This document shows positions 27,151 to 48,855 of a DNA stretch of 57,682 bases, in pieces. Each line of letters begins with the position of its first letter. Positions within the stretch are counted from its first letter, which is position 1. Source of the stretch: a virus; IMG/VR virus record IMGVR_UViG_3300047276_000505, positions 1 through 57,682 of that record; one strand, given 5' to 3'. Both the position numbers and the translations under genes were made by a program. Under the pieces are notes generated by a model that saw only the letters and a program-made list of their open reading frames with translations, was not told the DNA's origin and made no database searches.

Positions 27151-27177
27151 CAAGCCCCTGGGAAACCGGGGGTTTTT
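27151..27177 (+). terminator. Rho-independent terminator
   Basis: AAGCCCC...GGGGG stem with GGAAAC loop, followed by TTTTTC, 18 nt after the helix-hairpin-helix gene. It separates the head genes from the M23 peptidase gene. Confidence 0.72.
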
Positions 27178-27203: not shown

Positions 27204-27899
27204 ATGGCTACGGGTCCAGCTCTATACCTAGGCAAAGTCGGAACCACAGGAACATCCACTGGTCCACACGCTCACTGGGAAGTCATGAAGGACGGGAAGC
27301 GTTTTGCGCTTTCTCAGGCACGTAGTGATATTGGTCAGTATCTCCAGTTCAAGAAGCCTGGCGCTACTATTTGGGAAAACCTTTACTCCAGGCAAGGGGA
27401 TGGCTTTGCATTAAACCCAAATGCAGCCCTCACCAGTCCCATGGGAATGAGGACACATCCGGTTCATGGTGACCAGCGTATGCACGGTGGCGAAGACTAT
27501 GGTCTTCCAGAAGGAACTCAACTGCGTTTCCTTGGCCCTGGTTCCGTTGCGACTTATTCCAATCGCGGTGGTGCAGGCAATGTTTCCAGCCTTCGCACCG
27601 GTCCTTACGAACTCCAGACGTTCCATTTGAGCGAGCTTCCAGGGTCTTCAACAACCCGTGGAAAATACCCGGAAAAAGAAGAGGCAACCACAACGGAAGA
27701 AAGTCAGACAAGCTCAACTTCGTTTGATGATTTGTTGAATAGTTATTTAGAGAGACAGGCTATTGATCAGTTTGCACAGCAAATGTTCCAACCCAAGTCT
27801 TCTCGACTTTCTCAATTTGCTCAGTTACTGAATATGTTCCCTACGGAAGCAATGTATAACCCTCTGGTAGATGCGCCAAGACAGCAGCAGCAAGGCTGA
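27204..27899 (+). CDS. M23-type peptidase with motifs in permuted order
   Basis: 231 residues. M23 zinc endopeptidases normally run RxHP...HxGxD first, then HLS, then TGxSTGPHxHxEV last. Here GTTGTSTGPHAHWEV is at residues 13-27 (H22, H24). RTHPVHGDQRMHGGEDYG follows at 83-100 (H94, D98) and FHLS at 140-143 (H141). All metal and catalytic residues are present but the last strand comes first. The C-terminal ~80 residues are linker and helix. Probably a virion-associated enzyme that opens peptidoglycan. TTAAAATA precedes it at 27183. Confidence 0.85.
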   Translation: MATGPALYLGKVGTTGTSTGPHAHWEVMKDGKRFALSQARSDIGQYLQFKKPGATIWENLYSRQGDGFALNPNAALTSPMGMRTHPVHGDQRMHGGEDYGLPEGTQLRFLGPGSVATYSNRGGAGNVSSLRTGPYELQTFHLSELPGSSTTRGKYPEKEEATTTEESQTSSTSFDDLLNSYLERQAIDQFAQQMFQPKSSRLSQFAQLLNMFPTEAMYNPLVDAPRQQQQG

Positions 27900-27941: not shown

Positions 27942-28403
27942 GTGCAGTTATCCGACTTTGATAAAAGTAGGGTCCGGTATCACCTGGGCTACTTCACGGT
28001 TTCCGTGCCAGCGGGCGACTACAGTCGTCTTGAGGAAGCAATGAATACGGTCCCAGATTCGTACTTCTACGACAAGATTGCTATTCAAATTGGCCGTTGT
28101 GATACCGCCGAGAAAAAGACAGAAGTTGCGACTTCTCCTTCCACTCGGTTAGAAAGCATCGCTGGCGACGTGGATCGTACGATCCGCTCCAGTAACGCTA
28201 AAGAAGCGTTAAAGGTTTGGGACGAGGTTTACCTCTACGAAACCAACCGTTTAGCCGGCATCCTTTACGTTCCAAACTACAAGGATCCGTTCCAGGCCAG
28301 GTACCGTTACGAACGCTCTGGTGCTGAATTCATCCAGGCATTGCCTGGTCCCGCCGACACCGCTGTTGGTTCTCGTCTTTATCTACATCAGGTTTGGAGG
28401 TAA
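27942..28403 (+). CDS. Hypothetical structural protein
   Basis: 153 residues, GTG start at 27942; TATAAT lies about 28 nt upstream. Beta-rich with YHLGYFTVSVPAGDYSRLEE and a helical middle. The form resembles head-tail connector or neck proteins, but I cannot assign a family. Confidence 0.62.
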   Translation: MQLSDFDKSRVRYHLGYFTVSVPAGDYSRLEEAMNTVPDSYFYDKIAIQIGRCDTAEKKTEVATSPSTRLESIAGDVDRTIRSSNAKEALKVWDEVYLYETNRLAGILYVPNYKDPFQARYRYERSGAEFIQALPGPADTAVGSRLYLHQVWR

Positions 28404-29449: not shown

Positions 29450-30103
29450 ATGGCTACACCGCGAGTTGGTACTCTTTCTTCAGCTGATCGGATGGCAATC
29501 TTTGATGCCGCCCGCAAGCTAAAGCTGGATCCTTATGAATTTGGTGGATTTCTCTCCCTGGAATCAGGTCCAAATATGGATCCAAACATCCGTGGTGGTG
29601 CCGGCGGTAATTACTACGGCATGATTCAATTTGGTCCTTCTGAACAAAAGAAGTACCTGGATTCTTCTCGCATGGGTCAATACACCCGTGCCGAGCAAGT
29701 ACCTAAAGCCGTTCAATTTTTGCTTGATCGAGGTTTCAAGCCCGGTCAGATGGGAATTGATCGTGCTTATGCAACCGTCTTAGGTGGTAACCCGAATGTT
29801 TCTTTGACAGCCAAAGATTCTTTTGGTACTTCTGTAGCAGGTGCTTTGCCACGTTTCAAAAAAGGTGGTGATCTGTACGCCAACGCCCAACGTGTTTTGG
29901 GTGATCTCCCTTCTGGTTTTGGCGCACCGCCGGCAGATGTTGCAGCCAAACAACCACAAAAGAAACAAGAGCTTGCAGGTCAAGATCCAGCGTTGCTAAT
30001 GATTGCTCAGCAGTTGTTTGCACCACTGGTTAAACCAGCCGCCTCTAGTCCCATGAACAAGCTTACGAACTTTATGCAGCTCTTTGGAGCCATGGGACAA
30101 TAG
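29450..30103 (+). CDS. Lytic transglycosylase-like protein
   Basis: 217 residues. The N-terminal ~100 show the SLT/lysozyme-like pattern: helix with FLSLESGPNMDP (probable catalytic Glu) followed by GGNYYGMIQFGPSEQ. The C-terminus is Lys/Pro/Gln-rich. It would cut glycan strands, probably as a tail-associated enzyme. Second of four peptidoglycan enzymes in the window. Confidence 0.75.
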   Translation: MATPRVGTLSSADRMAIFDAARKLKLDPYEFGGFLSLESGPNMDPNIRGGAGGNYYGMIQFGPSEQKKYLDSSRMGQYTRAEQVPKAVQFLLDRGFKPGQMGIDRAYATVLGGNPNVSLTAKDSFGTSVAGALPRFKKGGDLYANAQRVLGDLPSGFGAPPADVAAKQPQKKQELAGQDPALLMIAQQLFAPLVKPAASSPMNKLTNFMQLFGAMGQ

Positions 30104-36803: not shown

Positions 36804-37469
36804 ATGTCGGATCTTTCGCATGCGATTAACCTGATTCGTAAATACGAAGGGTTCAACGAAAAGGCATACCCGGATCCGACCACAGGTGGAGAACCTTATA
36901 CCATTGGGTTCGGAACTCAGTTCTACCCCGATGGTTCTCCCGTCAAAAGAGGCCAGTGCTGCACCAAGGAAAAGGCACTGGAATACCTTTTTCACGAAGT
37001 TTCAATCATTGACACCCAGCTGGTCAAACTGAACCTGGGGCTTGATACACACATGCGTCAGGCCTTGATTTCATTCATTCATTCCGTTGGTTGGGATCCT
37101 TTTCTGTACAGCAGCGTGATCGACAACATCGAGCACGAAGACTTCTGTGCTGCCACTGGAGAAATCGGTCGGTGGATCTTTGACCAAAACCACAACGTCA
37201 TCGGTACTCTTGTGGACCGCAGGCGAGAGGAGATCAGCCTGTTTTTGAACGAGATCAACGCAAATCCCTGGTCGTCTACACAAGTTCTTCTGACTGCTTT
37301 CCGTAATTACACTGCTGCCCCCCACCAAGTCAGAGCCATCCGTGCATTGGAAGAAAGCATTAATCCTTACGTCCTTTCAAAATTTGCCAACGACTTTGAC
37401 ATCGACGAAGATCCATGGTCGACTTACGACACAGACGACATCGATTTGCTGTTTAGCAGCTACCATTAG
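36804..37469 (+). CDS. GH24 phage lysozyme (endolysin)
   Basis: 221 residues. The T4-type muramidase pattern: Glu15 in LIRKYEGF, then AYPDPTTGGEPYTIGFGTQ holding the catalytic Asp/Thr region, ALISFIHSVGW helix, and the VDRRREEISLF C-terminal box. The last ~60 residues are an acidic extension. It cleaves the glycan backbone of peptidoglycan at lysis or entry. Confidence 0.9.
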   Translation: MSDLSHAINLIRKYEGFNEKAYPDPTTGGEPYTIGFGTQFYPDGSPVKRGQCCTKEKALEYLFHEVSIIDTQLVKLNLGLDTHMRQALISFIHSVGWDPFLYSSVIDNIEHEDFCAATGEIGRWIFDQNHNVIGTLVDRRREEISLFLNEINANPWSSTQVLLTAFRNYTAAPHQVRAIRALEESINPYVLSKFANDFDIDEDPWSTYDTDDIDLLFSSYH

Positions 37470-47742: not shown

Positions 47743-48855
47743 ATGTCTATAAAACTTACGGATGCTGCCAAGTTCTTCAAAGAAGAACAACACCAGATCG
47801 ACGCATGGAATTGGCTCCAGGGCACTCTCTCCGCAGAGACCCTGGAGACTTTTGCGTTTAAGTACCGTGCCGCAGCAAAAGAAGATCCCAAAACAATCAA
47901 CACTTGGGACGGTGTGCACGCTGCTGCAAAGAAAGCGGGGGCTAAATTTCCTGAATGCGTTTGTGCACAATGGGCACTTGAGTCAGGCTGGGGTAAACAT
48001 TTTTCTGGTACCTGGAACGCATTCGGCCTGAAGGGAAGTGGTAGCGCTGTTAGTACCAAGGAGTTTGTCAACGGTCAGTGGATTACAATCACGGCAAGTT
48101 TCATTGATTTTCCTGACTTAGAGACCTGCATTGTCTACTTGGTTGACCGCTGGTACAAAGACTTTGGTAAATACAAAGGTGTTAACCGTGCAACCAGTAG
48201 GAATGAATGTTGTCAACTGTTGGTGAAGGAAGGATACGCTACAGATCCTGACTATAGTACAAAATTAATACAGATCCTTGACCGGCAACTTGGTACGCCA
48301 GGTACTTCAGTCCCAGCAACTGACACCAAAAAGATCCTTAATGTACCTTATGAGTACCAGTTGGATAACCAGTCAGGCACTGGATACCGCGAATGTTTCT
48401 CGTCGACATGTGCCATGATCGCACGCTATTACGGCAAGGTTAAGAGCGACGATGAGTACAACAAGATCCGTGCTAAGTACGGAGACACAACCAGTAAGGA
48501 TGCTCAGTTAACGGCACTGCGTAGCCTAGGACTTGTGGCCAGGTTTATTACCAACGGCAATGCTGCGTTATTGGAAAACGAGATCCGTAACAACAGGCCT
48601 GTAGCCGTTGGTTGGTTACATAAGGGCACCGTCTCTTATCCAACTGGTGGTGGCCATTGGACTTGCTGCATTGGTTTCACGCCAGATTCGTTTGTCTTCA
48701 ACGACCCGAATGGGGAAGCCGACATGATTAACGGTGGTTACGTCAGCAATAGCTCCAAGTCAGGTGCAGGTGTAAAGTACAGCCGTAAAAATTGGCTTAG
48801 GCGCTGGGAGTGCGACGGCAAGAATACAGGATGGGCAATCCTTGTGACGAAATGA
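47743..48855 (+). CDS. Bifunctional endolysin: GH73-type glucosaminidase plus C39-like peptidase
   Basis: 370 residues. The N-terminal ~190 residues match FlgJ-type glucosaminidases (CVCAQWALESGWGKHFSGTW with the catalytic Glu, NAFGLKG). A short linker is followed by a papain-like C39 domain (VPYEYQLDNQSGTGYRECFS with catalytic Cys, and GGGHWTCCIGF with His). The first cleaves glycans, the second peptide cross-links. Confidence 0.88.
   Translation: MSIKLTDAAKFFKEEQHQIDAWNWLQGTLSAETLETFAFKYRAAAKEDPKTINTWDGVHAAAKKAGAKFPECVCAQWALESGWGKHFSGTWNAFGLKGSGSAVSTKEFVNGQWITITASFIDFPDLETCIVYLVDRWYKDFGKYKGVNRATSRNECCQLLVKEGYATDPDYSTKLIQILDRQLGTPGTSVPATDTKKILNVPYEYQLDNQSGTGYRECFSSTCAMIARYYGKVKSDDEYNKIRAKYGDTTSKDAQLTALRSLGLVARFITNGNAALLENEIRNNRPVAVGWLHKGTVSYPTGGGHWTCCIGFTPDSFVFNDPNGEADMINGGYVSNSSKSGAGVKYSRKNWLRRWECDGKNTGWAILVTK

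Follow-up and report, generated by a model that had tools for sequence, protein, structure and literature searches.

M23 peptidases are among the best-studied families of cell-wall hydrolases. Their zinc-binding and catalytic residues usually follow each other in the linear order HxxxD, His, HxH, and in ordinary members the catalytic histidine lies approximately 30 residues before the HxH motif (PMC9662197). The M23 enzyme NMB0315 (3slu) is a D-Ala-mDap endopeptidase, and the virion-associated lysins gp13 of phi29 and Tal2009 are discussed as ordinary M23 domains (PMC9662197). In the open-access literature on permutation in combination with M23, LytM or tape-measure proteins, we found no account of a circularly permuted natural M23, and permutation is not mentioned in a dedicated 2022 review of the family (PMC9662197).

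Here, we analyze a gene in a viral DNA stretch of 57,682 nucleotides (the whole of it referred to as the window), the product of which carries the M23 motifs in the order HxH, HxxxD, His.

Motif order and lobe reordering

The gene is located at 27204–27899 on the forward strand, as are all the elements within it, and encodes 231 amino acids from an ATG start. The N-terminus of the protein, GPALYLGKVGTTGTSTGPHAHWEV, is the sequence that normally closes an M23 domain. This C-terminal lobe, placed first, covers residues 6–34 (27219–27305; GxVGTTGTSTGPHAHWEV); residues 13–27, GTTGTSTGPHAHWEV, contain H22 (codon 27267–27269) and H24 (27273–27275), by homology the catalytic histidine and a zinc ligand, respectively. 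A linker of residues 35–75 (27306–27428), kept within the HxH cyanophage type, joins the original C- and N-termini. The N-terminal lobe is placed second (residues 76–154; 27429–27665), and its residues 76–145 (LTSPMGMRTHPVHGDQRMHGGEDYGLPEGTQ...YELQTFHLSE) form the stretch that normally opens an M23 domain. It contains TSPMGMRTHPVHGDQRMHGGEDYG, with the putative zinc ligands H94 (27483–27485) and D98 (27495–27497), followed by QTFHLS with H141 (27624–27626), which by homology would be catalytic. Residues 160–231 (27681–27896) form a C-terminal tail, an exchangeable module that we propose to be a docking tag. Thus, both the H(x)3D zinc motif (H94/D98) and the HxH motif (H22/H24) of M23 are present, and their usual linear order is absent. 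The original prediction had placed HxH within residues 13–27, ahead of H94/D98 and H141, and translation and scripted numbering place them there as well.

The Pfam profile PF01551 matches the native protein with 32.1 bits (gathering cut-off 28.7) in two separate stretches, the best of which aligns residues 9–33 with profile positions 69–93 of 96. As the end of the profile falls at the start of the protein, the C-terminal lobe comes first. Judged from its sequence, the product is a permuted M23 variant and not an ordinary PF01551 member.

When the native protein was compared to PDB sequences (phmmer), the top M23 structures were matched as separate pieces in opposite order. With residues 64–154 set ahead of residues 5–42, the match to 3slu changed from two stretches (E 1.7e-11) to one stretch spanning the domain (E 5.7e-15), and E values decreased from 2e-3 to 4.1e-7 for LytM (2b0p) and from 2e-5 to 5e-9 for ShyA. 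In total, 23 distinct M23 sequences from the PDB align with the reordered query as one domain, and the Pfam match becomes a single stretch of 39.7 bits over profile positions 1–93 of 96. The domains in tape-measure proteins and those of a third type (see below) also score better after the same reordering. Rejoining the lobes places H141 approximately 30 residues ahead of HxH (13 from H141 to residue 154 and 17 from residue 5 to 22), the spacing of ordinary M23 enzymes.

Predicted structure

AlphaFold2 modeling of residues 1–155 with 33 diverse permuted sequences gave one compact domain (pLDDT 90.3, pTM 0.86), with all five models at pLDDT 86–90. The modeled strands, including E6–12, E23–29, and E32–34, follow the M23 strand pattern in permuted order. 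In the full-length model, the tail is predicted to contain two helices (173–194 and 200–211), with low pLDDT. Foldseek searches of the PDB with the domain-only model gave matches to 3slu (probability 0.75, TMq 0.39) and 6muk (probability 0.96, TMq 0.37; 84 columns, 5.2 Å), none of the PDB matches reaching E ≤ 0.001. These matches are partial because Foldseek aligns in sequence order and consequently covers only part of a permuted fold. A full-length model built earlier from a shallower alignment returned no M23 among the top 50 listed. Matches among viral models included a long one (TMq 0.66, 170 columns, E 7e-7), a tape-measure fragment, and a virion protein of S-TIM5.

The models suggest that the two lobes fold together in cis. 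They would close within one chain to form the usual active site of an M23 (LytM-type) zinc endopeptidase, the linker of approximately 40 residues joining the original termini; the new termini of the domain would fall in the loop that precedes the last conserved GxVG strand. Good support for reading the motif order as circular permutation, and not as decay, comes from the single full-domain match after reordering, the normal His-HxH spacing, and the confident single-domain model.

Permuted relatives

Relatives were found at 41 IMG/VR loci, and every full-length one agrees with the window protein in its lobe order and its short N-terminus; an assembly artefact is therefore excluded. The expectation that all catalytic and zinc-binding residues are kept was borne out, with H22, H24, H94, D98, and H141 invariant in 21 distinct sequences that are 44–96% identical to the 231-aa protein, a degree of conservation that exceeds chance. 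In the window and in most relatives, the ATG is preceded by an in-frame stop only a few codons away, leaving no room for a hidden upstream half.

The window belongs to the lineage of cyanophage S-EIV1, with a virion protein (phrog_20475) that is 73% identical and a marker neighbor that is 86% identical to their S-EIV1 counterparts. Searched with the 231-aa protein, the collection of isolates yielded no close relative, and the S-EIV1 homolog was reached through the neighboring genes. This syntenic gene (AHV82231.1), annotated as 'peptidase M23 family', encodes a diverged permuted domain. The permuted order is common to both proteins, but that of S-EIV1 has HxD instead of HxH and a different tail, and its record is silent on permutation.

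From the S-EIV1 homolog, the search extended to tape-measure proteins in phages of Acinetobacter and Moraxella (e.g., YP_009593409.1 and AKI27805.1). These have the same lobe order and the same breakpoint as the window protein, but here the domain lies in the middle of a tape-measure protein of 1400 aa, with a linker of approximately 25 aa and HxD. A further case, reached through Foldseek, is gp111 of S-TIM5 (L412:6128-9118), a virion structural protein with an HLH lobe ahead of an HTGVD/AHLL lobe. As in the window protein, the HxH lobe precedes the HxxxD lobe; gp111 differs in having a degenerate M23 N-lobe fragment (Pfam profile 45–79) before the permuted pair, and a Phage_lysozyme2 domain after it. 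From its domain order, gp111 could be a duplication/deletion intermediate, which is only suggestive, as relatives, too, retain the catalytic-type histidine of the first copy.

Searches of bacterial genomes at E ≤ 1e-13 identified one Acinetobacter tape-measure protein in 299 genomes of the Acinetobacter phylum and one permuted HxD locus in 292 genomes of the cyanobacterial phylum, suggesting that the permuted form is phage-borne and rare in bacterial chromosomes. A 208-aa permuted HxD M23 protein is encoded in a cyanobacterial genome (L416:1252-1878), probably in a prophage.

A cassette slot and a shared tail

The gene adjoining the permuted M23 gene (27942–28403, forward strand; phrog_29158, 153 aa) is conserved, and was used as a marker for the position upstream of it (the slot). 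The 161 loci surveyed yielded 99 distinct upstream proteins, of which 77 are permuted M23 proteins by a strict motif test (42 with HxH, 27 with HxD, and 8 of a third type). M15-like peptidases, recognized by motif, account for another 12 and a further type for four, whereas in the remaining six the neighboring open reading frame is another gene. By the same strict test, neither a normal-order M23 nor an intact ancestor occurs among the 99 syntenic proteins. A full normal-order domain upstream, the case named in the original prediction as the one that would refute it, is likewise absent from all 99, and a hidden upstream or downstream lobe is ruled out by this survey together with the upstream stop.

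The M15-like cassette carries the motif H...D...HxH, from which alone it takes its name, as there is no Pfam match. A fifth type of cassette (L332, L349, L359, and L362) reads GFTGPSAKIGGSTDYHxDLKLL...GGGYGYYSE...GHGN, also with no Pfam match; it could represent a permuted M23 that has diverged further, and was left out of the permuted count because it fails the motif test.

Exchange of the catalytic part is apparent from a pair of loci, one with an M15-like peptidase (L344:2293-2785) and one with a permuted M23 (L363:2293-2785), whose upstream flanks (2286 bp) share 99.8% identity and whose downstream flanks share 96.9%. Only the catalytic cassette differs and the tail is the same, which on sequence comparison is a recent cassette exchange. 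In three such pairs, tails that are 89–95% identical lie beneath unrelated catalytic domains, and tail clusters are common to different cassettes. In this lineage, the catalytic part is thus swapped between near-identical flanks while the C-terminal tail is kept. Just 5' of the slot gene lies a terminator-like hairpin, GCCCCTGGGAAACCGGGGGTTTTT (27154–27177, forward strand), that is kept in the relatives inspected. In these relatives, the hairpin, with an A-rich leader after it directly ahead of the slot gene, lies at the left border of the cassette exchange.

A second protein, with a related tail in some genomes, is encoded nearby. The gene at 29450–30103 (forward strand) specifies a transglycosylase/tail-lysozyme-like protein of 217 aa with an ESG motif and a weak match to PF18013 (E 0.09), and some of its homologs have C-terminal tails related to the one on the permuted M23 in the same genome. 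The clearest case is L242, in which the tails of the permuted M23 and the transglycosylase-like protein (L242:4318 onward) align over 67 columns with a score of 153, against a best of 50 in 1000 shuffles, and the catalytic parts score 34. For the S-EIV1 pair the tail score is 54 (shuffle maximum 40), and for the two proteins of the window it is 34, not above the shuffles (maximum 42). Among 13 less redundant genomes, tails pair within a genome more than at random (p about 0.007), a value that is only indicative as the genomes are related and one slot gene is mis-assigned. Both the recurrence of the permutation in other phages and the exchangeable cassette with a shared tail go beyond what had been predicted for this gene.

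Discussion

Taken together, we consider it probable (at roughly 0.72) that the gene encodes a genuine, cis-folding permuted M23 zinc endopeptidase, carried in the virion as an entry enzyme, of which the exchangeable catalytic cassette is docked by the tail. By analogy with its closest solved relative, NMB0315 (3slu), the domain would cut the D-Ala-mDap cross-links of cyanobacterial peptidoglycan. The tail may dock the cassette on a virion component that is also used by the transglycosylase-like partner; the latter would cut the glycan, and the common type of tail would place both enzymes on the virion. From the gene context, a virion-carried D,D-endopeptidase docked by its tail is the most likely role. 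It is supported by the position of the gene downstream of that for the major head protein, among head and structural genes, by the separate lysozyme and endolysin genes, and by the permuted homologs in tail and virion proteins.

A real permuted fold could also serve in exit, as an endolysin or auxiliary lysin. A large number of M23 proteins from phages have been assigned as endolysins (PMC9662197), ORF123 of PaV-LD is a normal-order M23 adjoining an annotated endolysin, and the placement of the window protein in the virion is indirect, from the gene neighborhood, the homologs, and the shared tail. Nevertheless, we consider a role in lysis unlikely. The permuted M23 gene is found inside the structural cluster, apart from the lysozyme-type gene (36804–37469), which is 9 kb away, and from a separate endolysin gene (phrog_10051; 47743–48855). 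In addition, homologous permuted domains occur in tape-measure and virion structural proteins, and the shared tail implies assembly. The product of the endolysin gene is 370 aa, and the gene lies far from the structural genes.

Motif order alone does not discriminate between an active site formed in cis and one formed in trans, in which the HxH lobe of one subunit would complete the HxxxD lobe of a neighbor in a domain-swapped ring or chain that works only when assembled, for instance on the virion. The tail, which suggests docking at a multimeric site of the virion, would be compatible with such an arrangement. We nevertheless find it highly improbable, as the monomer is predicted as one compact and confident domain, the linkers of the window protein and of the tape-measure versions are ample for closure in cis, and the same order is found in unrelated carrier proteins.

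Still less probable is that the protein is what remains of a decayed M23, a pseudo-enzyme with swapped lobes that is retained for a structural role only. In permuted sequences outside the group of the window gene itself (those of the S-EIV1 and tape-measure types included), aspartate takes the place of the second histidine of HxH, which could be taken as a sign of decay. Aspartate is able to ligate zinc, and HxD is also present in a normal-order M23 (L047) and is thus not tied to permutation. Moreover, in the alignment of 33 permuted sequences from three groups of cyanophage and tape-measure proteins, H22, H94, D98, and H141 are invariant down to approximately 20% identity. The alternative cassette in the slot has an M15-like motif, suggesting that catalysis is under selection. 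Apart from the unusual order itself, nothing favors an artefact, whether a normal-order gene that was truncated or wrongly assembled or a pair of half genes that overlap. This reading is already refuted by independent loci: dozens of contigs, as well as isolates (S-EIV1, Acinetobacter, Moraxella, and S-TIM5 phages), share the order, and a stop lies in frame upstream.

We further suggest, tentatively and at slightly less than even odds, that the permuted M23 proteins are an unrecognized branch of M23 that originated within the tail proteins of phages through tandem duplication and deletion, with gp111 of S-TIM5 preserving an intermediate, and that in S-EIV1-like cyanophages they are one of several interchangeable peptidoglycan-hydrolase cassettes. 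These would be loaded onto the virion through a docking tag at the C-terminus that a transglycosylase also carries. If so, phages would swap their wall-cutting chemistry while the docking site remains unchanged. The slot with its near-identical flanks offers a natural experiment on such exchange of wall-degrading chemistry. The occurrence of one kind of tail on different proteins suggests a virion-docking tag that can be transferred, which is directly testable. Profile searches split permuted M23 proteins into partial matches or miss them, as for the S-EIV1 type; consequently, the annotation of many phage entry enzymes may be incomplete.

Compared to the M23B peptidases (PF01551; NMB0315 [3SLU], LytM, and lysostaphin), the window protein has the same zinc ligands and catalytic residues and the same strand motifs and predicted fold, but its lobes are permuted, with a new linker between the original termini, and it has an exchangeable C-terminal tail instead of a recognized cell-wall-binding domain. 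By analogy, its proposed role is similar to that of phi29 gp13 and Tal2009, wall cleavage at entry. Unlike these lysins, the permuted M23 of the window stands alone, with a tail that can be swapped.
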